Positions 1-14,108 of a DNA stretch of 51,210 nt are shown here, piece after piece. The first letter of the stretch is position 1; each line of letters opens with the position of its first letter. The notes under the pieces are model-generated. The model was not told the DNA's origin. It did no database searches and saw nothing but the letters and a program-made list of their open reading frames with translations. This stretch comes from Aneurinibacillus terranovensis DSM 18919. Lineage in GTDB: Bacteria; Bacillota; Bacilli; Aneurinibacillales; Aneurinibacillaceae. A program made the position numbers and the translations under genes. The stretch is taken from contig NZ_KE387174.1 of NCBI RefSeq assembly GCF_000430625.1, forward strand, positions 45,519 to 96,728. The letters are read 5' to 3'.

Positions 1-127
1 CCCTGCAGAAAAAGGACGAGCGGCAACGCCCGCGAGTTTTTCTCATTTTTCCTGTACAATAAGAAGGAGAAGGCGAACATTGCACGAATAAATAGAAAAT
101 GGTTTGGGAGACAAAGGGGATGTGGCG
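1..127. other. Upstream flank of cheR, no gene seen
   Basis: No coding region that can be supported ends or starts here. A short hairpin (GCGG at 20-23 with CCGC at 30-33) followed by a T-rich stretch at 37-50 could be the terminator of a gene outside the window, but the stem is only 4 bp. In B. subtilis the gene upstream of cheR is ndk; that is expectation, not something visible here. Confidence 0.3.
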
Positions 128-904
128 ATGGAAGATAAAGATTTTCTCCAATTTATAGAGAAAGTAAAGAAAAAAACAGGCATTGACCTGGCATTGTATA
201 AAGAGGCACAAATGAAACGCAGATTGACTTCGTTGCGGATGAAGCGGGGATTCAATGATTTTTCCGGTTTCTTTGAAGGAATGGTAAAAAATCCGGAACT
301 GTTTAACGAATTTTTGGACCGGATGACGATTAACGTGTCCGAATTTTTTCGTAATCCGAGCCGATGGAAGGTGCTGGAAACAAAAATCATTCCCCGCCTG
401 CTGAAGGAAAAAGGAAAGATTAAATGCTGGAGTGCGGCTTGTTCAACAGGCGAAGAACCGTATTCACTCGCGATGTTATTTTCGCGGTTTATGCCGCTTT
501 CCCAAGTGGATATAACGGCGACCGACCTTGACGAGGGCGCCATTGCCAAGGCGAAACGCGGCCTTTATGCCGAACGTTCTTTGCAGGATGCGCCGCCGGA
601 TTTGGTAAACAAATATTTCCGCAAAGAACCTCCGATGTTTGCGATTTCTGACGAGATCAAGCGAGTGATCAAATTTAAAAAACACAACATGCTTGCCGAC
701 CCTTTTGACAAAAATTACGATTTAATCGTCTGCCGGAATGTCATGATTTATTTTACGGAAGAGGCGAAGAACGAACTCTACCATAAATTCAGCGATTCTT
801 TGCGGCCCGGCGGTGTGCTGTTCGTCGGTAGTACCGAACAAATTTTTCAGCCGCAGCAGTACCGTTTTGAGTCGGAGGACACGTTCTTTTACAAAAAAGT
901 ATAG
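128..904 (+). CDS. cheR: Chemotaxis protein methyltransferase CheR
   Basis: CheR transfers methyl groups from S-adenosylmethionine to glutamates of chemoreceptors, setting receptor sensitivity during adaptation. The 258-residue length matches the family. The N-terminal helical domain (about residues 1-70) is followed by the SAM-binding domain, with the characteristic ACSTGEEPYS signature at about residues 104-113 and the later CRNVMIYF motif. I chose ATG 128 because AAAGGGG (113-119) sits 8 nt before it; TTG 104 and GTG 122 are in frame but less well placed. The position directly before aroC is the same as in B. subtilis, so this is a location outside the main chemotaxis operon. Identification is secure. 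Confidence 0.95.
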   Translation: MEDKDFLQFIEKVKKKTGIDLALYKEAQMKRRLTSLRMKRGFNDFSGFFEGMVKNPELFNEFLDRMTINVSEFFRNPSRWKVLETKIIPRLLKEKGKIKCWSAACSTGEEPYSLAMLFSRFMPLSQVDITATDLDEGAIAKAKRGLYAERSLQDAPPDLVNKYFRKEPPMFAISDEIKRVIKFKKHNMLADPFDKNYDLIVCRNVMIYFTEEAKNELYHKFSDSLRPGGVLFVGSTEQIFQPQQYRFESEDTFFYKKV

Positions 905-1049
905 GTGGCTGGAATGGAATGGTCCGTTTTATTTTTTGTACGTCTTTCCTTTGCGAGGAAGCTGCAACTGACCGTGTTCTGCCAAAAAAGGGGTACCCTG
1001 TCCGAAACATCTGGGTAGCTCGACATTCCCCCCCTATGATTTTCCGAAT

Positions 1050-1067
1050 TGCTATACTATAATAGCA
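1050..1067 (+). promoter_or_regulatory. Candidate promoter/dyad before aroC
   Basis: A dyad TGCTAT-ACTATA-ATAGCA contains two possible -10 elements, TATAAT (1058-1063) and TATACT (1053-1058, preceded by TG as an extended -10). No good -35 is visible. It lies 34 nt before the aroC start, so it could be a promoter for the aro genes with an overlapping operator. The rest of the 196-nt cheR-aroC gap shows nothing else I can name. Confidence 0.4.
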
Positions 1068-1100
1068 CATAAAAGCGTTAAAGGATGGGAGAGAAAATTC

Positions 1101-2261
1101 ATGCGTTATTTAACAGCAGGAGAGTCACACGGACCACAACTAACCGCAATTATTGAAGGGGTTCCCAGCAATTTGCCCCTTTCCATTGAGAAAATTAATG
1201 AACAATTGCTGCGGCGGATGAAAGGGCACGGCCGTGGGCGGAGGATGCAAATCGAAAAGGATGAAGTAAAAATCGTTGCAGGCGTTCGCCATGGAAAAAC
1301 AACCGGGGCGCCCATTTGCCTCGTTGTGGAAAATAAAGATTGGACGCACTGGGAAAAAATTATGAGTGTGGAGCCGATCGATGATGAGGAAGATAAGCGC
1401 CGTGTAGCACGCCCTCGCCCGGGTCATGCGGATTTGAACGGGGCTCTGAAATACAATCAGCGTGATATGCGAAATATTCTTGAGCGGTCCAGCGCCCGTG
1501 AAACAGCGATTCGTGTAGCAGTCGGGGCGGTAGCCCGCCAATTGTTAGAACAATTCGACATTGTTGTTGCAGGTCAAGTGCTGCGCATTGGAGAAGTGGA
1601 AGCCAAACGGCTTCAGCTTGATCTTAAAGAGTTAATTCGCGTCACAGAGGAATCCCCTGTGCGCTGCGCCGATCCGGAAGCTACACAGAAAATGATGGAT
1701 TTAATCGATAAGGCAAAGGCGGACGGCGATTCTCTTGGCGGTATTGTCGAGGTGCAGGCGGACGGTCTTCCGGTCGGGCTGGGAACCCATGTGCAGTGGG
1801 ATCGCAAGCTTGACGGGCGCCTTGCCCAGGCCGTTATGAGCATCCAGGCATTTAAAGGCGTCGAAATCGGTATCGGTTTTGAAGCCGCTGAACGTCCGGG
1901 ATCCCAGGTTCACGATGAAATCATTTTAAATGAACAAGGAACGTATACCCGTGGCACGAATCGGGCGGGTGGACTTGAAGGCGGAATGACGAACGGGATG
2001 CCAGTTGTTGTTCGCGGGGTGATGAAGCCCATTCCAACGCTATACAAGCCGTTGAATAGCGTGGACATCGATACGAAAGAACCGTTCGCCGCCAGCATCG
2101 AGCGTTCGGATAGCTGTGCGGTTCCCGCCGCGAGTGTGGTGGCCGAGGCTGTCGTGTGTTGGACGCTGGCCGAAGCGATCATGGAAAAATTCGGCGGGGA
2201 CTCGCTAGAAGAGATGAAAGATAACTACAAGCGATATGTTGAATATGTGGAGAGGTTTTAA
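1101..2261 (+). CDS. aroC: Chorismate synthase
   Basis: Converts 5-enolpyruvylshikimate-3-phosphate to chorismate, the last common step of aromatic biosynthesis, using reduced FMN. The 386-residue protein begins with the family signature GESHGPQL and carries the RPGHAD motif and RSSARETA region that line the active site. Start ATG 1101 has a GGGAGAG ribosome-binding site. It is the first gene of the aro/trp cluster, 2 nt before aroB, so the two are almost certainly cotranscribed. The B. subtilis name for this gene is aroF. Confidence 0.97.
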
Positions 2262-2263
2262 AG

Positions 2264-3376
2264 ATGGAAGATACCCGGTCATTGAAATGCCTTGAAGTCG
2301 CTTTAGGGGAACGGTCCTACCCGATTTGGATCGGCCCGGGTGCGGTCGATGAATTGCCCCGCCTTTTCAGGGAACAGGGGATCGGCACGAACAGGCGGCT
2401 GTTTATAATTACAGATGAGAATGTTGCCCCCTTGTATTTGAACAAGGTTGAACATATGTTGACCGTTGCAGGTTATATCGTATCGCACGCTGTCGTTGCC
2501 GCGGGTGAAAAAGCAAAAAGTTTACCCGTATTTGAACAGATGATCACCCGTGCGCTAGAAGCGGGGCTTGACCGCAAATCTGTTTTTATTGCCTTGGGCG
2601 GCGGGGTAGTCGGGGATTTGACAGGTTACGTAGCCGCCGCGTACATGCGAGGTGTAGACTTCGTACAGGTGCCCACCACTTTACTGGCACACGACAGCAG
2701 TGTGGGCGGCAAGGTCGCGGTTAACCATCCGCTGGCCAAAAATGTGATTGGAGCTTTTCACCAGCCAAAATTTGTTGCGTATGACACGGCTCTACTTACG
2801 AGCCTGCCTGCGCGGGAAGTGGCAGCCGGCTTTGCCGAAGTAATTAAGCACGGCCTGCTGTGGGACGAATCGTTCGTAACGTGGATAGAAGAACATGCGG
2901 CGGGTTTACAGGCGCTTGACCACTCGCTGCTCCAGGAAGCGATTTACCGGGCCTGCAGCATTAAAGTGGCCGTTGTGTCGAAAGATGAGCGGGAAAGCGG
3001 CCTGCGCGCGATTTTAAACCTTGGGCACACGTTTGCCCACGCATTTGAATCACTCACAGGGTATGGAACAATAAACCATGGAGAAGCTGTCGCCATTGGT
3101 ATGGTGGCTGCCGCCCGTCTGGCTGAAAAACTCGGATTGGCTGAAAATATTAGCCGTCGAACGCAAACCATTCTGGAAGATTTCAAGCTGCCCGTACGGT
3201 TAACCGAAGATTTAGACATCCCAACCATTATTGAAGTCATGCGCCGCGACAAAAAAGGGGAGAACGGGAAACTTGTATTTGTTCTGCCCGCTGCAATCGG
3301 CAAGGTTGTCATAAAAAAAGATGTGCCGGAAGCACCGGTGTGTGAAGTGCTACATGAATTAAAAGGAGGAAGCTAA
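2264..3376 (+). CDS. aroB: 3-Dehydroquinate synthase
   Basis: Second enzyme of the shikimate pathway: cyclises DAHP to 3-dehydroquinate using NAD+ and a divalent metal. The 370-residue protein has the nucleotide-binding GGGVVGDLTGYVAA segment (about residues 107-120), the VPTTLLAHDSSVGGK substrate region and the metal ligands in AEVIKHG and LGHTFAHA/NHGEAVAIGM. Starts 2 nt after aroC and is followed directly by aroH, giving a tight aroC-aroB-aroH unit. Confidence 0.97.
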   Translation: MEDTRSLKCLEVALGERSYPIWIGPGAVDELPRLFREQGIGTNRRLFIITDENVAPLYLNKVEHMLTVAGYIVSHAVVAAGEKAKSLPVFEQMITRALEAGLDRKSVFIALGGGVVGDLTGYVAAAYMRGVDFVQVPTTLLAHDSSVGGKVAVNHPLAKNVIGAFHQPKFVAYDTALLTSLPAREVAAGFAEVIKHGLLWDESFVTWIEEHAAGLQALDHSLLQEAIYRACSIKVAVVSKDERESGLRAILNLGHTFAHAFESLTGYGTINHGEAVAIGMVAAARLAEKLGLAENISRRTQTILEDFKLPVRLTEDLDIPTIIEVMRRDKKGENGKLVFVLPAAIGKVVIKKDVPEAPVCEVLHELKGGS

Positions 3377-3772
3377 ATGGCTGTACGTGGTGTTCGCGGT
3401 GCGATTACCGTGCCTGCAAACGAGGAAAAGGAAATACTTAGCGGAACGGAAACGTTAGTTCGAAAAATGATTGAAGTCAACGAAATTGAAGCGGAAGATG
3501 TAGCCAGTGTCGTTATCACGGTTACTCAGGACTTAAACGCTGCCTTTCCGGCACGGGCTGTCCGCTGTATTTCCGGGTGGGATCTCGTCCCTCTGATGTG
3601 TTCGACAGAGATTTCCGTTCCGGGCGGTCTGGAGCGGTGCATCCGGGTGATGATGCTTATCAATACGGAAAAAACGATTGGGGAAATCCACCATGTCTTT
3701 TTAGAAGGTGCCGTTGTTCTGCGCCCGGATTTACACGCTAGAGAAAACAACTTGAAAGAAAGTAAGTGTTGA
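3377..3772 (+). CDS. aroH: Chorismate mutase, AroH type
   Basis: Rearranges chorismate to prephenate, the branch to phenylalanine and tyrosine. This is the small trimeric alpha/beta-barrel-like class of B. subtilis: 131 residues, N-terminal VRGVRGAITV, and the C-terminal FLEGAVVLRPDL region with the active-site arginine. The start ATG follows the aroB stop codon immediately and has a perfect AAAGGAGG. Its stop codon TGA lies inside the -35 element of the trp promoter, so aroH transcription may run into trp or collide with initiation there. Confidence 0.95.
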   Translation: MAVRGVRGAITVPANEEKEILSGTETLVRKMIEVNEIEAEDVASVVITVTQDLNAAFPARAVRCISGWDLVPLMCSTEISVPGGLERCIRVMMLINTEKTIGEIHHVFLEGAVVLRPDLHARENNLKESKC

Positions 3773-3797
3773 CAGAAAAGTAGAACACATTTATTAT
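3769..3797 (+). promoter_or_regulatory. trp operon promoter
   Basis: TTGACA (3769-3774) is followed after exactly 17 nt by TATTAT (3792-3797), close to the sigma-A consensus. The -35 overlaps the aroH stop codon. Transcription would begin near 3804 and give a leader of roughly 225 nt before trpE. The internal promoter before trpE inside a larger aro-trp transcript is the arrangement known from B. subtilis. Confidence 0.85.
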
Positions 3798-3821
3798 AAA
3801 AACAACCATAAACAGATATGG

Positions 3822-3913
3822 TAGAGCAAGCAGAGTTGAGAGATAGACCGACAGAACAGCCCGCCGTTATCGGCCGTTAAGTGTGAGTTGAGAAGAGTAG
3901 AGCCTGAGGAGAG
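3822..3913 (+). promoter_or_regulatory. TRAP-binding (G/T)AG triplet array in the trp leader
   Basis: The leader RNA carries (G/T)AG triplets with short spacers, the signature of binding by TRAP, the 11-subunit tryptophan-activated RNA-binding protein. Cluster 1: TAG/GAG at 3822-3826, a degenerate AAG at 3828, GAG at 3833 and 3838, TAG at 3844. Cluster 2: GAG at 3885, 3890, 3895, 3900, 3906 and 3911, spaced 2-3 nt. The last triplets overlap the antiterminator. Between the clusters lie 38 nt without good triplets but with a small GCCG/CGGC stem, so the array is split. The TRAP gene itself (mtrB) is not in the window. Confidence 0.85.
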
Positions 3914-3977
3914 ACATAATCTGTTTGTATTGAACGGGATACGTCTGTCCGGAGCGTTGTGCTCCGGACTTTATTTG
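3908..3977 (+). terminator. trp attenuator: antiterminator and intrinsic terminator
   Basis: The terminator is a perfect 9-bp stem, GTCCGGAGC (3947-3955) with GCTCCGGAC (3961-3969), loop GTTGT, followed by TTTATTT. Its 5' arm also pairs with upstream RNA: GGAGAGAC (3908-3915) with GTCTGTCC (3943-3950), one mismatch. That alternative helix uses the last two GAG triplets, so bound TRAP would block it and let the terminator form. This is the classic TRAP attenuation logic: high tryptophan stops transcription before trpE. Confidence 0.85.
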
Positions 3978-3995
3978 CATATTTTCCTCCAAGGC

Positions 3996-4018
3996 CCTCT
4001 TCATCATGAAAGAAGAGG
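3996..4018 (+). promoter_or_regulatory. Hairpin masking the trpE ribosome-binding site
   Basis: CCTCTTC (3996-4002) pairs perfectly with GAAGAGG (4012-4018), which is the core of the trpE Shine-Dalgarno sequence (AGAGGTGA). The 9-nt loop contains an in-frame ATG at 4006 that has no ribosome-binding site of its own. In B. subtilis an SD-blocking hairpin lets TRAP repress trpE translation in read-through transcripts; this one looks equivalent. Confidence 0.7.
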
Positions 4019-4029
4019 TGAAGCGCCAA

Positions 4030-5547
4030 ATGTATACTCCAACTGTTGATGAAGTGCTCGAACTTCGTCAAACATACAACCTGATCCCGATTCGCTATAC
4101 GTTTTTAGCCGATCAGGTTACCCCGATTCAGCTGTATCAGACGCTTCGCGCGGACGATACGTTCCTGCTCGAGAGTGTAGAAGGCGGGGAGCGCTGGGCC
4201 CGCTACTCCTTTATTGGCATCAATCCATTTCAAACCGTGAAAACGAAAGACACGACGATTGAATTCACACACCGCTGCGGGAAAACGGAAAAAATGGAGG
4301 GCAATCCCCTGGAACTGTTGCGTTCCCGGATTTCCCATTACCGCAGCCCGCAGGACAGTCAATTGCCGCCATTTACCGGAGGGGCAATCGGCTTTCTCGG
4401 GTATGATACGATGCAGCATATTGAAAAATTGCCGAAACCCAAAAAAAGTTCGCTGCAGCTTCCGGATATCCATATGTTTTTTGTCGACGAGGTCATTGCA
4501 TACGACCATTTGAAACAGGAAGTGCAGGTCATTGTCAATCTGTATGTCGAAGAACAGGCGAATGAAGGAGAAATTAAATCCGCCTATGAACAATGCTGCA
4601 GGCGCATTATGGAAATTGTCAAACAAATGACAGAACGTTCCTTTTCCTTGCAGCGCGTCGATAATATTCCAAAGTCGGTCGAACCGATTCCGGTTGTTAG
4701 CAATATTTCAAAAGAAACTTATCTGGAAATGGTGCGCCGGGGAAAAGAATACATTGCAGCAGGCGATATTTTTCAGGTTGTGCTGTCCCAGCGGTTTCAA
4801 GCCCCTGCAAAGTCCGACCCGCTGTTTGTCTACCGGATATTGCGCGTGACAAACCCTTCCCCCTACATGTACTATTTTCAAACGTCAGATGCAACAGTTG
4901 TCGGCACTTCGCCGGAATTGCTCGTAAAAGTCACCGGGAATAAAGTGGACGTCCGCCCGATCGCGGGCACCCGGCCGCGCGGAAGTGACCAGGCCGAGGA
5001 TGAACGGTTAAGGGAAGACCTTCTGGCAGATGAGAAAGAGCGGGCTGAACATTTGATGCTGCTTGACCTGGGGCGCAATGATGTGGGCCGAGTTTCACGT
5101 TTTGGCAGCGTTGAAGTGAGCGAACAAATGGTGATCGAATTGTATTCGCGTGTCATGCATATGGTTTCACATGTAAGCGGGCGGCTGGCAGAAGGGAAGG
5201 ATTCCTTTGATGCCCTGCTGTCATGTTTCCCGGCCGGGACCGTTTCAGGGTCGCCGAAAATCAGGGCGATGGAAATTATTAATGAACTCGAACAGGAATC
5301 CCGCGGCATCTATGCCGGTGCCATCGGATATTTTAGTTTCAATGGAAATCTTGATTCTTGCATTGCAATTCGAACCATTGTGTTTCAAGGCGGCCAGGCA
5401 TATGTGCAGGCCGGGGGAGGCATCGTAGCCGACTCGATTCCGGAAAATGAGTATGAAGAGACGAGAAATAAGGCAAGGGCCATGTTTCATGCATTGAGTT
5501 TAGCAGAGCAAATGATGAGAGTAGAGGAGATGAGCGTGGATGTTTAA
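4030..5547 (+). CDS. trpE: Anthranilate synthase component I
   Basis: Forms anthranilate from chorismate with ammonia supplied by a glutamine amidotransferase subunit; first committed step to tryptophan. The 505-residue protein has the N-terminal anthranilate-synthase domain, including the LLESVEGGERWARYSFIG feedback-binding region, and the C-terminal chorismate-binding domain with IAGTRPRG, LDLGRNDVGR and PAGTVSGSPK. Start ATG 4030 is chosen because AGAGGTGA lies 9 nt before it; ATG 4006 lies in the loop of the SD hairpin. No trpG is present in the operon, as in B. subtilis where the folate-operon PabA serves both enzymes. Stop overlaps trpD by 8 nt. Confidence 0.96.
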   Translation: MYTPTVDEVLELRQTYNLIPIRYTFLADQVTPIQLYQTLRADDTFLLESVEGGERWARYSFIGINPFQTVKTKDTTIEFTHRCGKTEKMEGNPLELLRSRISHYRSPQDSQLPPFTGGAIGFLGYDTMQHIEKLPKPKKSSLQLPDIHMFFVDEVIAYDHLKQEVQVIVNLYVEEQANEGEIKSAYEQCCRRIMEIVKQMTERSFSLQRVDNIPKSVEPIPVVSNISKETYLEMVRRGKEYIAAGDIFQVVLSQRFQAPAKSDPLFVYRILRVTNPSPYMYYFQTSDATVVGTSPELLVKVTGNKVDVRPIAGTRPRGSDQAEDERLREDLLADEKERAEHLMLLDLGRNDVGRVSRFGSVEVSEQMVIELYSRVMHMVSHVSGRLAEGKDSFDALLSCFPAGTVSGSPKIRAMEIINELEQESRGIYAGAIGYFSFNGNLDSCIAIRTIVFQGGQAYVQAGGGIVADSIPENEYEETRNKARAMFHALSLAEQMMRVEEMSVDV

Positions 5548-6565
5548 AGACCTTCTGCACCGGGTTGTGGCCGGTGTATCGTTAACACGCGAGGAAGCGA
5601 GTCTCGCGATGCGTCTGATTATGGAAGGGGAAGCGACTCCCCTGCAAATCGCAAGCTTTTTAACGGCACTTCGCATGAAAAATGAAACGGTGGAAGAAAT
5701 GGTTGGTTTCGTACAGACGATGCGAAACAAGGCAGCGTCCATTGATACATCGCGCGACTATTTGCTTGATACATGTGGAACCGGCGGGGACGGCGGTATT
5801 TCATTCAATGTTTCTACCGCTTCTGCCATTGTAGCGGCGGCAGGCGGAGTGCGCATCGCCAAGCATGGAAACCGGGCCGTATCCAGCAAGAGTGGGAGCG
5901 CCGATGTACTCGAAGCGCTCGGTGTAAGCATTACGTTAACGCCGGAGGAGGCAACCCGGTGTCTGGAAGAGACGAACCTGTGCTTTTTGTTTGCTCCCCA
6001 GTACCACCAGGCGATGAAACATGCGGTAGAGCCCCGCAAACAAATTGGGTTTCGCACCGTTTTCAATCTGCTTGGCCCGCTGACCAATCCGGCAGGAGCT
6101 GACCGTCAGCTGATTGGAATCTACGACCACAATCTTGGGCATAAGGTTGCCGAAGTTCTGGCTGAGATGGGTGTCAAGCGTGCGCTTGTCGTTACGGGAG
6201 AAGACGGGCTTGATGAAATTAGCATTAGTGGTCCGACCCATGTGGTCGAACTCGACCACGGAACCATTGCAGACTACCGGATTGAGCCTGATATTTTCGG
6301 TTTGCCCACCTATCCGCTGCAGGCAGTAGCGGGCGGGGCCGCAGATTTGAACGCTAAAATTATTCGGGCGGTGCTCAACGGTGAAAAAGGGGCATATCGC
6401 GACATTGTGCTACTCAATGCCGGAGCAGCCCTGTATTTAAACGAGCAGGTTTCATCGATTGGCGAAGGGGTCAAACAGGCAAGGGATGTTATTGACTCAG
6501 GGAAAGCGAAACAAAAGCTGCAGCAGCTTATAGAGGTAACAGGAGGTGTCAGCCATGCTTCATAG
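5540..6565 (+). CDS. trpD: Anthranilate phosphoribosyltransferase
   Basis: Joins anthranilate to phosphoribosyl pyrophosphate. The 341-residue protein has the PRPP-binding glycine-rich motif in DTCGTGGDGG (about residues 76-85), the following NVSTASA and KHGNRAVSSKSGSADVLEALG segments, and the anthranilate-site region HHAMKH/GFRTVFNLLGPLTNPA, with the usual YHQAMKH form. It overlaps both trpE (8 nt) and trpC (11 nt), so the proteins are probably translationally coupled. Confidence 0.96.
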   Translation: MFKDLLHRVVAGVSLTREEASLAMRLIMEGEATPLQIASFLTALRMKNETVEEMVGFVQTMRNKAASIDTSRDYLLDTCGTGGDGGISFNVSTASAIVAAAGGVRIAKHGNRAVSSKSGSADVLEALGVSITLTPEEATRCLEETNLCFLFAPQYHQAMKHAVEPRKQIGFRTVFNLLGPLTNPAGADRQLIGIYDHNLGHKVAEVLAEMGVKRALVVTGEDGLDEISISGPTHVVELDHGTIADYRIEPDIFGLPTYPLQAVAGGAADLNAKIIRAVLNGEKGAYRDIVLLNAGAALYLNEQVSSIGEGVKQARDVIDSGKAKQKLQQLIEVTGGVSHAS

Positions 6566-7367
6566 AATTGTCGCGCAAAAACAGCAGGAAGTGGCTTTAT
6601 TAAAAGAACGGCTTACCGTCCGGGATATGGAGCAGCATATTGCGGCACTTCCTCCGTGTATTTCGATGAAAGAACGTTTTCGCAACCGTACGCGTCCTGT
6701 CGGTGTGATTGCAGAAGTTAAAAAAGCATCGCCTTCCAAAGGAGTAATTCGGGAGTATTTCGATCCGGTTGACATTGCCAGTCGATATTCGGATGCAAAT
6801 GTAGAAGCGATTTCCGTTTTAACCGACCAGACTTTTTTTCAGGGTGATGTATCCTATCTTGCTGCAATAAAGCATAATCTCACAAAGCCTATCCCTCTTT
6901 TGCGCAAAGACTTCAACATCGACCCGCTGCAAATTTATGAGGCAAGGGCCAATGGGGCGGATGCGGTTCTTCTCATCGCGGCCATTCTCGATAAACAGCG
7001 AATGAGTGAACTGGCGCGTGAAGCGGGCAATGTAGGCCTTGAGATTCTCGTGGAAGTGCATACGGAACGTGAACTTGACGGCGTGTTAAGCAGCATTGAA
7101 CCGGATTTACTCGGCATTAACAACCGCGATTTAAAAACGTTTACCACCTCGCTGTCGAATACGTTCCGGTTAATTACCAAGATTCCTTCGTCTATAATAA
7201 GAATCAGTGAGAGCGGAATCCGCACGAAAGAAGATATTGCCCTGCTGCATCAATCCAATGTGGACGGTGTTCTCGTCGGGGAAACATTTATGCGTCAGGC
7301 TGACGTTACCGGTGCTGTGTTCAACCTGGTCGGGCCTGCACCGGTGCAAAAGGACGTTCTCGTATGA
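6555..7367 (+). CDS. trpC: Indole-3-glycerol phosphate synthase
   Basis: Decarboxylating ring closure that makes indole-3-glycerol phosphate. A 270-residue TIM barrel with the family motifs VIAEVKKASPSKG, LRKDFNID, and the C-terminal ISESGI and VLVGE phosphate-binding loops. ATG 6555 is preferred: AGGAGG (6541-6546) is 8 nt upstream, while the in-frame GTG 6546 lies within that site. Monofunctional, not fused to TrpF. Confidence 0.95.
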   Translation: MLHRIVAQKQQEVALLKERLTVRDMEQHIAALPPCISMKERFRNRTRPVGVIAEVKKASPSKGVIREYFDPVDIASRYSDANVEAISVLTDQTFFQGDVSYLAAIKHNLTKPIPLLRKDFNIDPLQIYEARANGADAVLLIAAILDKQRMSELAREAGNVGLEILVEVHTERELDGVLSSIEPDLLGINNRDLKTFTTSLSNTFRLITKIPSSIIRISESGIRTKEDIALLHQSNVDGVLVGETFMRQADVTGAVFNLVGPAPVQKDVLV

Positions 7368-8092
7368 CCGGTTTGTTTACGAAACATCCGCTCGTCAAAA
7401 TATGTGGAATCACGCAGGCTGATACGATTACAGAAATTGTTGAACGGAGGCTGTCCGTCGATTGGCTCGGTTTTGTCTTCGCTCCAAGCCGCCGGCAGGT
7501 TGCCCCGTCGCGCTGGCAGGAGCTGGCTGGCTTGATTCCATCCGATATAAAAACCGTCGGCGTGTTTGTCGATCCGGCGCTGGAAGAAATCGCAGCTGTT
7601 TTTAACACGGCGCGGCTTGATATCGTTCAGCTTCACAGTGAAGCTTCCCCGGCTTTTTGTCAACGCGTAAAAGAACAATTTGGCTGCCAATTAATTAAGG
7701 TGTTTGGGATTAACGAACCTGGCGGCATGCAGCATAACTCTGACAATCCCTGTGACGATGAGGAATATAAAATCAGCTCTGTGCTTGATTCTTACCTGGG
7801 AATCGTCGATTATGTACTGCTAGATACTGTTACAACGTCTCAGGCAGGGGGAACAGGCAAAGCGTTTGCGTGGGATGAAATGACCCCATACCGTGCATGG
7901 TGCGAAACCCACGGGTTGCCGCTTATCGTTGCCGGGGGCATCAACGAGCGAAATGTTGCCGAACTGGTACGAAAATATAATCCCGACGGTATCGATGTTT
8001 CAAGCGGGGTAGAAACCGATGGCAGGAAAGACGCGGACAAAATTCAAACTTTAATAGAAAGGGCGTTATGCGATGAACGGAGCAGAGCTTGA
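7364..8092 (+). CDS. trpF: Phosphoribosylanthranilate isomerase
   Basis: Amadori rearrangement of phosphoribosylanthranilate. The TIM barrel starts with VKICGIT containing the catalytic cysteine, has the [13 protein letters not shown] segment, the catalytic aspartate in LLDT, and ends with GGIN and IDVSSGVET phosphate-binding loops. At 242 residues it is about 30 longer than usual; the extra length is an acidic insertion (about residues 122-140, [12 protein letters not shown] region) between KVFGI and the VDYVLLDT strand. ATGA overlap with trpC, and 20-nt overlap with trpB. Confidence 0.94.
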
Positions 8093-9278
8093 AAAGAAAA
8101 TAAGAGGAAGATTTGGCGCTTTTGGCGGCCGCTATGTTCCGGAGACGCTCGTCAATGCGCTCGACGAGCTGGAAACCGCCTATGAAAAAGTGATGACCGA
8201 CCCCGGATTTCAGAAAGAACTGTCTGCATTTCTGCGCCAATATTCCGGTCGGCCGACTCCGCTTTATTTTGCCGAACGCCTCACGGAAAAAGTGGGAGGT
8301 GCGAAAATCTACTTAAAACGGGAAGATTTGAACCACACCGGCGCGCACAAAATCAATAATGCGATCGCGCAGGGCTTGCTCGCGAAGTACATGGGAAAGA
8401 CGTCAATTATCGCTGAAACCGGTGCCGGTCAGCACGGAGTGGCTGCGGCTACCATTGCGGCACGGCTTGGTATGTCATGCAAAGTATTTATGGGTGAAGA
8501 GGACATGAAGCGCCAGAAGCTGAACGTATTTCGTATGGAAATGCTTGGTGCGGAAGTGGTACCGGTGTATTCCGGCACTCGGACACTAAAAGATGCCACG
8601 AGTGAGGCGATCCGCTACTGGGTAAGCACGGTTGATACGACGTTTTACATGATTGGCTCGGTTGTCGGTCCCCACCCTTATCCGCAGATGGTTCGCGATT
8701 TTCAGCGGATTATTGGAGACGAGACGAAAGAGCAAATCCTCACACAAGAGAATCGCCTGCCCGATTATATCGTGGCCTGCGTAGGCGGGGGCAGCAACGC
8801 AATGGGCATATTCTACCCGTTTATAGCCGACAAAGAAGTTGCCCTTATCGGCGTTGAAGCCGCAGGTGTCGGGATTGACACCGATAAACATGCCGCCACT
8901 TTTTCCAAGGGGAGCCGAGGAATTATTCATGGAGCGATGACGTATCTCCTCCAGGATGAATACGGCCAGATTATTGAGCCCTATTCCATTTCCGCTGGTC
9001 TTGACTACCCGGGGATTGGTCCGGAGCACTCCTACCTGCATGACAGCGGCCGGGCAGCATACCGTCCGATAACCGATGATGAAGCGCTCGCCGCCCTCCA
9101 TTTGTTGTGCGAGGTGGAAGGAATTATCCCGGCTCTCGAGAGCGCCCATGCGGTGGCGGAAGCGATAAAGATTGCACCTGAGCTGGATAAAGACAGCATC
9201 ATCGTTGTGTGCCTTTCAGGCCGTGGAGATAAAGATGTCACGCAAATCTATGAAAGAGAAAAGGGGGAGCAGGCATGA
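8073..9278 (+). CDS. trpB: Tryptophan synthase beta chain
   Basis: Condenses indole with serine to tryptophan using pyridoxal phosphate. The 401-residue protein has the [11 protein letters not shown]-terminus, the PLP-lysine motif [11 protein letters not shown], the ETGAGQHG phosphate loop, and the GGGSNAMG cofactor-phosphate site, all typical of TrpB1. Its stop codon overlaps the trpA start (ATGA), as expected for subunits of one alpha2beta2 complex. Confidence 0.97.
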
Positions 9279-10096
9279 TAACGAGTACTGGAGGCACGAA
9301 ACGAATCGAGGGTGCGTTCGCAAAAGGGCGGCAGGCATTCATCCCTTTTATTACGGCCGGTTTCCCGACACCTGAAACAACCCTTTCGCTTGGGCTCGCC
9401 CTGCAGGAAGCAGGAGCCGATTTACTTGAGCTTGGTGTGCCGTATTCGGATCCTCTTGCCGATGGGCCGACGATCCAGTTTGCTTCCGCACAGGCTCTCA
9501 CCCACGGTGTTACCATTCAGCGGGTGATTGAACTGGCGGGAGCGATGCGGGAAAAAGGGGTAACCATTCCGATTATTTTATTTACGTACTATAATCCGGT
9601 GTTGCGCTACGGGATTGACCGTTTATTTGAGGAAATGGCTGCTGCGGATATAGACGGTATTCTTATCCCGGATTTGCCTTTCGAAGAAGCGGAGGAAGTG
9701 GAAGAGATCGCTGCCAGGTATGGCCGTCCTCTCATCTCGCTGGTTGCTCCGACCTCGCAGAAGCGCATTCAAATGATCGCCTCCCGTGCCCGTGGGTTCC
9801 TGTACTGTGTCTCTTCGCTCGGTGTAACGGGTACTAGAAAAGAATTGGGAGAGCATATCGTCCCCTTCCTTGAAGAAGTGAAACGCTATTCAGGTGTTCC
9901 TGTTGCGGTTGGGTTCGGAATTTCAAGCCGTGAACAGGCCGAGCGGCTGGCGCCATACAGCGACGGGTTTATTGTCGGCAGTGCTCTGATTGAAAAAATC
10001 CGTGAACTTTCACCCCGGCTGATCGCTCCTGATTCTTTGGAGGAGGCGTTGAACGACGTAAAAATATTTGTAAAACAGCTTCACTCTGCGGTATGA
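9275..10096 (+). CDS. trpA: Tryptophan synthase alpha chain
   Basis: Cleaves indole-3-glycerol phosphate to indole and channels the indole to TrpB. The 273-residue TIM barrel has the catalytic glutamate in [19 protein letters not shown], the second acidic residue in [12 protein letters not shown], and the GFGIS and FIVGSAL phosphate-binding loops. Last gene of the trp block proper; hisC follows after 37 nt. Confidence 0.96.
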
Positions 10097-10133
10097 TGAA
10101 AGGAATAGACTGCATATTTAATGAGGTGAATAT

Positions 10134-11213
10134 ATGATTCCTAAATCGCAGATTGTAAATTTACCAGTATATGAACCCGGCAAACCAATTGAAGACGTAA
10201 AGCGGGAGCTAGGCCTCACCGAGGTGATTAAACTCGCGTCCAATGAAAATCCGTTTGGATATTCACCTAACGTACGCGAAGCTCTGCTTTCGCAATTAGA
10301 CCATCTGCCGATTTATCCGGATGGGGCCTGTCTTGAGTTGCGCGAAGCGGTCGCCTCGTTTCTTGGTGTGAAAGGCGATGAACTTGTTTTTGGCAACGGA
10401 TCCGATGAACTTGTTGTCCTCATTACGCGTGCCTACTTGCAGGGCGGCACCAATACGATTATGGCTGTGCCAACATTCTCGGTATACAAAACGAACGCGG
10501 AGATTGAAGGGGCGGATGTCATTGAAGTACCGTCGATTGAAGGGGCGCACGATCTCGACGGCATGCTTGCCAAGGTTGACGAGCGGACGCGCGTGATCTG
10601 GATTTGTAACCCGAATAACCCGACGGGTACGATGATAACCGAAACCGAACTGGTCCGTTTTTTGAATCAAGTTCCGGATCACGTACTCGTAGTTCTTGAC
10701 GAAGCGTACAGTGAGTACGTGAAAAGTGAGGAATATCCGAACTCAATTAAGTTGATGGACGAATACAAGAATCTTATTATCCTGCGCACCTTCTCAAAAA
10801 TATATGGGCTTGCCGCCCTGCGCGTCGGTTATGGAATTGCCAGCGCCGAAATCATAGATAAGCTTAATCGCGTACGTGAGCCGTTTAATGTCAATCATCT
10901 CGCACAAAAAGCCGCACTGGCTGCGCTGGCGGACCAGGAATTTGTCCGGAGTTGTCAACAGGCCAATGCCGAAGGATTGCAGCAGATGTATGCCGGGCTT
11001 GATGAGCTCGGTGTCAAATACTACCGTTCCGAAACGAATTTTGTTTACATTATGCCGGAGCGGGATTCAAGGGAAATCTTTAATGAAATGCTGAAGTTGG
11101 GCATTATCATCCGCGCATTTCCCGAAGCAATCCGTGTGACGGTCGGCAGCCGCGAACAGAATGAGAAAATGCTGGCAGCGATGCGGGCAGTGTTGACTCC
11201 AACCGCTTCCTGA
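10134..11213 (+). CDS. hisC: Histidinol-phosphate aminotransferase
   Basis: PLP-dependent aminotransferase of histidine synthesis that in B. subtilis also transaminates the tyrosine and phenylalanine precursors, which explains its place in the aromatic cluster. The 359-residue fold-type I protein shows IKLASNENPFG, the NPNNPTG motif, DEAYSEY and the PLP-lysine region TFSKIYGLAALRVGY. It has its own ribosome-binding site (TGAGGTGA) and no overlap with trpA. Confidence 0.94.
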   Translation: MIPKSQIVNLPVYEPGKPIEDVKRELGLTEVIKLASNENPFGYSPNVREALLSQLDHLPIYPDGACLELREAVASFLGVKGDELVFGNGSDELVVLITRAYLQGGTNTIMAVPTFSVYKTNAEIEGADVIEVPSIEGAHDLDGMLAKVDERTRVIWICNPNNPTGTMITETELVRFLNQVPDHVLVVLDEAYSEYVKSEEYPNSIKLMDEYKNLIILRTFSKIYGLAALRVGYGIASAEIIDKLNRVREPFNVNHLAQKAALAALADQEFVRSCQQANAEGLQQMYAGLDELGVKYYRSETNFVYIMPERDSREIFNEMLKLGIIIRAFPEAIRVTVGSREQNEKMLAAMRAVLTPTAS

Positions 11214-11240
11214 GCGGGCGGATTAAAAATCTCCTTCAGT

Positions 11241-11276
11241 CATGGAGTGGCCTTTATAACCGGAGGTCACTCCATG
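11241..11276 (+). repeat. 12-bp stem-loop between hisC and tyrA
   Basis: CATGGAGTGGCC pairs with GGTCACTCCATG (one G-T pair) around the loop TTTATAACCGGA. No T-run follows, so it is not a standard terminator. It may be an mRNA processing or stabilising structure, or an operator. Nothing else is apparent in the 124-nt gap. Confidence 0.6.
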
Positions 11277-11337
11277 CTGTATAGCAGATGCATCGTCTGA
11301 ATTTTGTTGCCAAGCTTTCTTTACAGGGGAATTACGA

Positions 11338-12456
11338 GTGGAGGGTTTAGACAGAACGATGAGACAGGTAGCCATTCTTGGAGTGGGGCTTATTGGCGGT
11401 TCGCTGGCTCTTTCCTTAAAAAAGCACGAAGACGTACATATTACCGGTTTTGATGTAACGGAAGATAATTTACGCATGGCCCAATCCCTCGGGGTGATCG
11501 ACAGAGGGACAACGCAATTGGCTGAGGCGGTCGCCGCAGCTGATTTTATTTTTTTGTGTGCTCCCGTCGGAAAATTGCATGAATTGATTTCCTTTTTGCG
11601 GTATACTCCATTGAAAAAAGGAGTCGTCATTTCCGATACCGGGAGCACAAAGGCGTGCATTATGGAGATGTCGGAGGGGTTTGCCAGCAGAGGGGTTTAT
11701 TTTGTCGGGGGACATCCGATGGCTGGCTCGCACAAATCCGGAGTGGAAGCATCGAATGAGCGCCTGTTTGAGAATGCGTATTACGTACTAACACCGGCCG
11801 CTGACACGCCTCCGGAGGTAATTGAGCAGATGAAGGAACTTCTTGCTCCAACCCGGGCGAAGGTGATTGTGCTGGACGCGGGGGAACATGACCGCATCGT
11901 CGGTGCAATCAGCCACTTTCCTCATATTATCGCCGCTACCCTTGTTAACCAAGTTGCCGGTTACGATGACGGAAATGACTGGTACAGGCGTCTTGCCGCA
12001 GGCGGCTTTCGCGATATTACACGCATTGCGTCGAGCAACCCGCGGATGTGGCGGGACGTACTGCTGAACAATCGTACGGTGATGATTAACCTGGCTCGGG
12101 ATTGGAGGAGTACACTGGATGACATTATCTCGCTTGTAGAAAAAGCAGACGGCCCCGGAATAGAGAAGTTTTTTGCGGCGGCCCGTTCGTTTCGTGATCA
12201 GCTTCCGGAAAAACAAAAAGGAGCGATCCCGCCGTATTTTGAGTTGTATGTGGATATTCCCGACCATCCCGGTATCATCGGGAAAATTACGACAATGTTG
12301 GGCGAACACGAAATTAGCATCACCAATATACACATTCTCGAAACCCGTGAGGATATACTCGGCGTTCTACGCGTCTCTTTCCGTAACTTTGAAGAGATGG
12401 AAGCTGCCGACGATGTATTGAAAAAAGCAGGATACCAGACATATCAGCGAGAGTAG
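11338..12456 (+). CDS. tyrA: Prephenate dehydrogenase
   Basis: Oxidative decarboxylation of prephenate to 4-hydroxyphenylpyruvate, the tyrosine branch. The 372-residue protein has an NAD-binding Rossmann motif GVGLIGGSLALSL near the N-terminus, the GGHPMAGSHKSG substrate region, and a C-terminal ACT domain (about residues 300-372; ELYVDIPDHPGIIGKI) that should mediate tyrosine feedback. Start GTG 11338 has AGGGGA 7 nt upstream; ATG 11359 (seven residues later) with GGAGGG 13 nt upstream is the alternative. Confidence 0.94.
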   Translation: MEGLDRTMRQVAILGVGLIGGSLALSLKKHEDVHITGFDVTEDNLRMAQSLGVIDRGTTQLAEAVAAADFIFLCAPVGKLHELISFLRYTPLKKGVVISDTGSTKACIMEMSEGFASRGVYFVGGHPMAGSHKSGVEASNERLFENAYYVLTPAADTPPEVIEQMKELLAPTRAKVIVLDAGEHDRIVGAISHFPHIIAATLVNQVAGYDDGNDWYRRLAAGGFRDITRIASSNPRMWRDVLLNNRTVMINLARDWRSTLDDIISLVEKADGPGIEKFFAAARSFRDQLPEKQKGAIPPYFELYVDIPDHPGIIGKITTMLGEHEISITNIHILETREDILGVLRVSFRNFEEMEAADDVLKKAGYQTYQRE

Positions 12457-12465
12457 GGGGTTATC

Positions 12466-13749
12466 ATGAAACAAGTATTGCCTGTTCAAGCGGTGCAGGG
12501 AAACGTGAAGGTTCCCGGGGACAAATCGATATCCCATCGTTCCGTTATGCTAAGTTCACTGGCGGACGGGACGACAAACATCTACGGCTTTTTGCCCGGA
12601 GCGGACTGTTTAAGTACGATTTCCGCTTTTCGGCGGCTCGGCATCACGATCGAGCAGCATGAAGACCGGGTGACCGTATACGGAAAGGGCTGGTATGGTT
12701 TACGTGAGCCGAGCGAGATTCTCGATATCGGAAACTCCGGCACAACGATCCGGCTGATGATGGGGATTCTCGCCACTCTCCCTTTCCACAGTGTATTGAT
12801 TGGAGATGAATCGATCGCCCGTCGGCCGATGAAACGTGTGACCACTCCCCTGCGTGAAATGGGTGCAGAAATCGACGGGCGTGCAGGCGGGGAATTCACA
12901 CCGCTTTCCATTCGCGGAGGAAAGCTAAGAGCGATCGAGTATCATTCTCCGGTAGCAAGCGCCCAGGTTAAGTCGGCGATTTTGCTGGCCGGTCTGCAGG
13001 CCGATGGAGTCACTACGTTATATGAACCTGAATTATCGCGCGACCACACGGAACGCATGCTTCGCTCTTTTGGTGTCGATGTCGAATCATTCCCGGGTGG
13101 CGTCCGGGTGCGCGGCCGACAGACGCTTACTTCACCAGGCGAAATTCATGTGCCGGGTGATATTTCCTCCGCCGCCTTTATCCTTGCCGCCGCAGCGATC
13201 CTGCCGGGAAGCCATGTGACCGTGGAAAATGTAGGGATGAATCCGAGCCGGACAGGTATTATTGATGTTCTTCAGGCGATGGGTGCTGACCTCACCCTGC
13301 ATAACGAAAGGGACATCAACGGCGAACCTGTTGCCGATATTGAATTGAAATACACTCCACTACATGGAACGGAAATTGCCGGGAATCTCATTCCGCGTTT
13401 AATTGATGAAGTACCTGTTATTGCGGTTATCGCAAGCCAGGCGGAAGGAACAACGGTGATTAGGGACGCGGCGGAACTGAAAGTAAAAGAAACCAATCGA
13501 ATTGATACGGTGGTTAGTGAACTGGGCAAAATGGGCGCTCGTATTGAAGCGACAGAGGATGGGATGACGGTTCATGGACCAGTACCCCTGATGGGAACTG
13601 TATGTGACAGTCACGGTGACCATCGAATCGGCATGTCTATCGCCATTGCCGGCTTGAAGGCTGCGGGGGAGACCCACGTTCGTGATGCGGAATCCATTGA
13701 TGTCTCATTTCCTGGCTTTTTTGCTGTCTTAAAAAGCATAAGCTGTTAA
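12466..13749 (+). CDS. aroA: 5-Enolpyruvylshikimate-3-phosphate synthase
   Basis: Adds phosphoenolpyruvate to shikimate-3-phosphate, the step before chorismate synthase. The 427-residue protein has PGDKSISHR near the N-terminus, [12 protein letters not shown] (about residue 89), the [15 protein letters not shown] segment and C-terminal KVKETNRID and HGDHRIGM. The glycine-rich PEP site reads GNSGTT, so this is the class II type often found in Gram-positives. Last gene of the aromatic supraoperon, 9 nt after tyrA. B. subtilis name aroE. Confidence 0.96.
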
Positions 13750-13781
13750 CTTCAGAAAATAAAAATTGCACAGGAAATTTG

Positions 13782-13809
13782 TTGACATTTTACTTATATC
13801 ACCTATAAT
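13782..13809 (+). promoter_or_regulatory. Strong promoter downstream of aroA
   Basis: TTGACA (13782-13787), 16-nt spacer, TATAAT (13804-13809). It is one of the best sigma-A matches in the window, yet no protein-coding gene lies immediately downstream on this strand; a terminator follows within about 80 nt. Confidence 0.75.
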
Positions 13810-13815
13810 AATCGT

Positions 13816-13897
13816 ATAGTATGGTTTCTCTCCACTCCTATCCATAATATGGGTTATCCCCATTCCACTCGTCTTGCAGGCGGGTGGTATTTTTTTG
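13816..13897 (+). ncRNA. Candidate small RNA between aroA and the Spo0E-like gene
   Basis: A promoter with near-consensus elements ends at 13809 and a terminator hairpin with a T-run ends at 13897, predicting an RNA of about 80 nt. It contains a small hairpin (ATGGG/CCCAT around 13849-13863) before the terminator stem. An 8-codon reading frame (ATG at 13821) is also possible, but it would be nearly leaderless. The terminator may instead serve only the aro-trp transcript, in which case the promoter is coincidental. Confidence 0.4.
13865..13897 (+). terminator. Terminator after the aromatic supraoperon
   Basis: CCACTCGTC (13865-13873) pairs with GGCGGGTGG (13879-13887), two G-T pairs, loop TTGCA, followed by TATTTTTTT. 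Ends the trp/aro transcript and the candidate small RNA, and faces the minus-strand gene at 13944-14108. Confidence 0.8.
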
Positions 13898-13943
13898 CTT
13901 GCCGACTGCATCAACCGGCGCAATTCGTAGGGGCAGGTTTTTG

Positions 13944-14108
13944 TTAAACCGATAATCTTTGCTTCATAATTTCATTAACAAGACAATCGATTTCTTGACT
14001 GATTTTAAGCACTTTTTTGTCGAGCAAATTCCTGTTCGATTGCTTATAAATCTGGTGCATCGATGTTCTCTTCTCTATAATCAATTGAATTAACTTATTT
14101 TCCTCCAT
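13944..14108 (-). CDS. Spo0E-like aspartyl-phosphatase family small protein
   Basis: A 54-residue protein read leftward. Spo0E-family proteins are two-helix peptides that dephosphorylate Spo0A-P and delay sporulation. The C-terminal half contains KISQEIDCLVNEIMK, which matches the family signature SQELD followed by a hydrophobic helix; the first half (about residues 4-24) is a predicted helix, as in the family. Start ATG at 14108 has GGAGG 7 nt upstream on the minus strand. It converges with the terminator of the aromatic operon. Assignment rests on the short signature, so function is probable rather than certain. Confidence 0.75.
   Translation of the reverse strand: MEENKLIQLIIEKRTSMHQIYKQSNRNLLDKKVLKISQEIDCLVNEIMKQRLSV

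Follow-up and report, generated by a model that had tools for sequence, protein, structure and literature searches.

A bipartite variant of the TRAP-controlled trpE leader in Aneurinibacillus terranovensis and a candidate second TRAP site at the trpE/trpD junction

The window analysed here is a stretch of 51,210 nt from Aneurinibacillus terranovensis DSM 18919 (NZ_KE387174.1, positions 45,519 to 96,728 of the forward strand), placed on contig C11 of the 4.25-Mb genome. It includes the trp operon, whose upstream neighbours are aroC-like, aroB-like and aroH-like genes (named by eye from the translations of their open reading frames). Features of the trpE leader and of the trpE/trpD junction are collected in Table 1. 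As judged from the sequence, the trp transcript probably starts at about 3804-3805. The TTGACA element located 5' of the triplet array is also present in leaders from relatives of the family. The short stem-loop found at the 5' end of the leader is beyond chance (fold z -3.04, equalled by 3 of 200 shuffles), and the sister genome L004 carries the same element with changed bases. A second ATG, at 4006, falls within the loop of the Shine-Dalgarno (SD) hairpin. A potential leader peptide (ATG 3818, 20 codons, TAA 3878-3880) was dropped, as it is preceded by no SD and contains, by eye, no Trp codons. No Rfam family matched positions 1-14000 of the window at the gathering threshold.

Table 1. Features of the trp leader and of the trpE/trpD junction (window coordinates)
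Feature	Position	Strand	Basis
Sigma-A type promoter of the trp operon, TTGACA - 17 nt - TATTAT	3769..3797	+	read in sequence
5' stem-loop ACCAUA-aacaga-UAUGGU	3805..3822	+	fold vs shuffles
Array 5' half: UAG 3822-3824, (AAG 3828-3830), GAG 3833-3835, GAG 3838-3840, UAG 3844-3846; spacers 3,2,2,3	3822..3846	+	read in sequence
Gap, 38 nt, with weak 4-bp hairpin GCCG-UUAU-CGGC and weak CAG, CAG, AAG	3847..3884	+	
Array 3' half: six GAG starting at 3885, 3890, 3895, 3900, 3906, 3911; spacers 2,2,2,3,2	3885..3913	+	sequence, folding tests
Antiterminator (predicted), overlapping the last two triplets and the terminator 5' arm	3908..3950	+	folding
Terminator: 9-bp stem, 5-nt loop, interrupted U-tract	3947..3976	+	sequence, folding
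SD-sequestering hairpin CCUCUUC...GAAGAGG over the trpE SD	3996..4018	+	sequence, folding
trpE (start ATG 4030, SD AAGAGGTG)	4030..5547	+	
Candidate TRAP site: 7 (G/U)AG, spacers 2,2,8,2,2,2	5496..5534	+	sequence, conservation

The leader had originally been predicted to carry an array of TRAP-binding triplets divided into about 4-5 and 6 triplets by 38 nt containing a small stem. The division itself is borne out and can be read directly between 3822 and 3913. The 5' half consists of 4 (G/U)AG triplets, or 5 in register with one AAG, and the leader as a whole contains 10 (G/U)AG triplets (11 with the AAG), with one spacer of 38 nt and another of 6 nt unless the AAG is counted. The six-triplet run of the 3' half is far beyond chance: a run of this length in register occurred in 0/300 dinucleotide and 1/3000 mononucleotide shuffles of the leader, and in 0/20,000 when the 3' part alone was shuffled. 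The 5' run is moderately beyond chance (p = 0.004 for a five-NAG register run and p = 0.017 for a run of (G/U)AG only). The small stem fared less well, since its 4 bp are readable but fold no better than shuffled sequence (z -0.49, with 58 of 200 gap shuffles folding equally well). The gap is not a dispersed repeat, its own copy being the only one in the genome at up to 3 mismatches. A strict pattern of five consecutive KAGNN units misses the known leader array, spacers being variable.

TRAP occupancy was mimicked by forcing triplets to remain unpaired in thermodynamic folding, a model that leaves out the protein and pseudoknots. The terminator stem-loop, GUCCGGAGC-GUUGU-GCUCCGGAC at 3947-3969 followed by UUUAUUUG, and the antiterminator, which contains the last triplets, were predicted to be mutually exclusive in these decoy-controlled folds. 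The antiterminator was predicted at 0.96 in the nascent RNA and at 0.94 in the RNA extending through the terminator, with the terminator at 0.10. Blocking the 3' half brought the antiterminator from 0.94 to 0.04 and the terminator from 0.10 to 0.86, while with the 5' half blocked they stood at 0.85 and 0.70, respectively. In the readthrough RNA, the SD hairpin was predicted at 0.06 when the array was free, where its 5' arm would pair with array triplets, at 0.76 with the 3' half blocked and at 0.20 with the 5' half blocked. Blocking the last triplet by itself lowered the antiterminator to 0.07, and a single block on the second or third GAG of the 3' half gave an SD hairpin of 0.86 or 0.93, respectively. 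Among 60 decoy sets of six blocks each, none matched the antiterminator value of 0.05 or the SD hairpin value of 0.76, and one matched the terminator value of 0.86. Since blocking the 3' triplets flips the folds and blocking the 5' triplets changes antiterminator and SD hairpin little, the 3' half is predicted to be the effector of the structural switch; of the two read-outs the antiterminator is the cleaner, because the terminator is also lifted by the 5' block. The most likely contribution of the 5' half is to provide binding sites. Deletion of the gap in silico left the predicted switch unchanged, so that no part in the switch itself is predicted for the gap. All the elements named in the original prediction of combined attenuation and ribosome-site control of trpE are present, and the predicted competition between them goes in the direction claimed when triplets are blocked.

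The same response was predicted in relatives, the SD hairpin going up on blocking of the 3' half in 10/10 family leaders scored. In several of them the equilibrium fold retains the terminator even without TRAP, so that the switch there would rest on the order of folding; a measure of nascent-chain capture applied to the relatives' leaders gave no clear outcome. We also considered a ring-closing helix between AACAGAU (3811-3817, in the 5' stem-loop) and AUCUGUU (3918-3925). A helix of 6-8 bp was found, by eye or by script, in 7/11 family leaders with one covarying pair; among 57 other leaders no excess of this complementarity was detected. The helix is too weakly supported to be claimed. The AUCUGUU segment is the antiterminator arm directly 3' of the array.

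To place the split among other leaders, sequences upstream of trpE were surveyed in TRAP-bearing Bacilli, taking one genome per species without phylogenetic weighting. This gave 72 distinct leaders, 64 of which were usable, that is, had a ten-triplet path with at most one spacer above 12 nt. With a path definition and cut-offs (12 nt, 20 nt, three triplets) chosen after the first leaders had been seen, ten triplets with every spacer at or below 12 nt were found in 52/64 leaders, and a gap above 20 nt flanked by at least three triplets on each side in 2/64. These two are the leader studied here (L002, 38 nt between 4 and 6 triplets) and L089 of genome G136 (by eye 5 triplets, a 46-nt gap, then 8 triplets), in which the split is independent. 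The split is real and rare. Family leaders often have their longest, or nearly longest, spacer directly 5' of the last five or six triplets; it measures 7 nt in L010 and L011, 9 nt in L003, 10 nt in L008, 15 nt in L006 and 38 nt in L002. As family spacers at this place range from 7 to 38 nt, the split appears to be the extreme of a graded series rather than a separate system. In the sister genome L004, the corresponding stretch holds additional triplets and a 7-bp stem. Across the family the final six (or five) triplets are conserved and the 5' part is variable.

The TRAP gene, mtrB, named in the original prediction as the first thing to look for, is present in the genome: a profile search with PF02081 scored 129.6 bits, over a cut-off of 21.3, at C11:40120, 9.4 kb upstream of trpE and beyond the window edge. 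The gene was found in 11/11 genomes of the family (Aneurinibacillaceae) and in 179/250 genomes sampled from the class. An alignment shows that the MtrB protein keeps the RNA-contact residues (E/K and K/R) described for TRAP of B. subtilis (PMC4027176). The B. halodurans TRAP is a 12-mer with markers K15, D71 and T72 (PMC3184956); the MtrB studied here shares D71 and T72, but has Leu at position 15 and a longer C-terminus. An 11-subunit ring is thus an assumption for this protein. An Anti-TRAP candidate was rejected, as it scored 22.4 bits, below threshold, with a model that also scores in E. coli. This match is a small CxxCxGxG protein (L084, 1483-1623, minus strand) with no Rfam match nearby, and looks like another small zinc-motif protein.

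Together, these observations lead us to favour, with a probability of about 0.72, a TRAP-controlled trpEDCFBA leader in which one ring spans both halves of the array and the gap is looped out. The leader elements and mtrB are read from the sequence, and the switch, with the 3' half as its effector, comes from predicted folds; the single ring on both halves, the order of binding and the ring size are what we infer. In the presence of tryptophan, TRAP (MtrB) would wrap the nascent leader, taking up first the 5' stem-loop and the 5' triplets and last the six 3' triplets; TRAP has been reported to bind RNA 5' to 3' (PMC4027176). The 38-nt gap would be looped out between adjacent sites on the single ring, an arrangement of which no example was found in the literature searched. 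TRAP on the 3' triplets would disrupt the antiterminator and allow the terminator to form. In transcripts escaping termination, the same block would release CCUCUUC to base-pair with the SD of trpE and shut off translation. In the TRAP-free leader, the antiterminator would include the last triplets, and triplets further upstream would pair with CCUCUUC, leaving the SD exposed.

The original prediction had left two options for the ring, binding to both halves with a loop or binding to the 3' half alone. The first is favoured because the six triplets of the 3' half fall short of the seven or more repeats for which stable TRAP binding has been reported (PMC4027176). Almost every leader in the survey, moreover, retains a path of some ten triplets, which argues against the second. 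We therefore regard as unlikely that the 3' half works alone, perhaps helped by the 5' stem-loop, the 5' half being a decaying remnant of a continuous array. Blocking the 3' half by itself does flip the predicted structures, and relatives show more variation in the 5' half, which exceeds chance by a moderate margin only (p 0.004 to 0.017). However, the 5' triplets are also retained in the sister genome, and the survey is dominated by leaders with at least 10 triplets.

Two rings, or one ring loading in two stages, could instead be involved, with early capture by the 5' half and a gap that holds back the 3' half and defines a kinetic window. The 5' to 3' binding of nascent RNA by TRAP (PMC4027176), the separation by the gap of a capture part from an effector part and the independent 5+46 nt+8 layout of L089 would all be consistent with such a process, yet 5 or 6 triplets per ring are again fewer than the reported stable minimum, and we consider it improbable.

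CAG is a poor TRAP triplet. Equally improbable is an effectively continuous array in which CAG/AAG at 3852, 3857 and 3879 are bound too, reducing the uninterrupted gap to a hairpin insert of about 19 nt: these weak triplets lie 2 or 3 nt from their neighbours and the B. halodurans leader has been described with 19 NAG triplets (PMC3184956), but three AG pairs in 38 nt are, by eye, no more than chance.

The leader is a known TRAP system in an unusual bipartite variant. It shares with the B. subtilis trpEDCFBA leader the mtrB gene, (G/U)AG triplets mostly at 2-3 nt spacers, a 5' stem-loop, a predicted antiterminator formed from the last triplets, a terminator with an interrupted U-tract and an SD hairpin that closes (here, as predicted) once the array is covered. 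It differs in that its 4-5 + 6 triplets are split by 38 nt, in contrast to 11 nearly even triplets in B. subtilis, and in its SD switch, in which a short arm, CCUCUUC, would pair with triplets of the array. Like the B. halodurans system it departs from the 11-triplet plan, although with fewer triplets and one large gap. In the split leader, a binding half that varies is set apart from an effector half that is fixed, and nature here provides a case for testing how a ring protein whose sites are evenly spaced deals with a divided RNA site.

A pattern search for further TRAP sites brought up a second cluster, of seven triplets, which spans the last trpE codons and the trpD SD (trpD ATG at 5540). 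A window-wide scan for triplet chains with spacers of up to 8 nt gave two matches, the 3' half of the leader array and this cluster. Its layout recurs, with small changes, in all ten readable family members. When codons were randomised synonymously using each gene's own codons, the cluster was significant in 9/10 junctions (p <=0.002; L007, p 0.16), and p ranged from 0.009 to 0.07 when the SD part was held fixed; the ten sequences are related and these p-values are therefore non-independent. The Leu codon that creates a UAG ends in A in 10/10 sequences (8 TTA, 2 CTA), compared with 29/190 over the 19 remaining invariant Leu columns. In L005 and L007, which have Ala in place of Ser, TTA is used there too and a UAG is thus kept. 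Codon identity reached 0.71 over the last 20 trpE codons versus 0.44. RNA structure does not account for the conservation of the trpE tail, whose folds are ordinary in 8/10, nor does dual coding with trpD, the trpD frame being closed upstream by a TGA at 5531. As judged at the sequence level, the junction triplets appear to be conserved beyond coding needs.

We therefore propose this cluster as a candidate second TRAP site, acting on the trpD SD. With 7 triplets and one 8-nt spacer, it is below the size of SD-overlapping TRAP sites in B. subtilis, which contain 9-11 triplets (PMC4347634). Like the sites on trpG, trpP and ycbK, where TRAP blocks ribosome binding directly, it overlaps an SD, as does a pabA/trpG cluster described below; it differs from them in that its target gene sits inside the trp operon. 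The literature searched, which was partial, gives trpE, trpG, trpP and ycbK as targets and does not include trpD, and the candidate would be a more novel part of the system than the split leader. If real, it would represent a TRAP target added within an operon already under TRAP control at its leader. A combined scheme, in which TRAP of the Aneurinibacillus group would use the bipartite leader site (one ring, looped gap) and in addition block the trpD SD, uncoupling trpD from trpE, is put forward tentatively.

The pabA/trpG SD of the same genome also carries a (G/U)AG cluster (L168, 1932-1976), a TRAP site type known for trpG in B. subtilis. Such clusters are present at the pabA/trpG SD of two relatives as well (L170 and L171, near 2000-2053), and in weaker form in L169.
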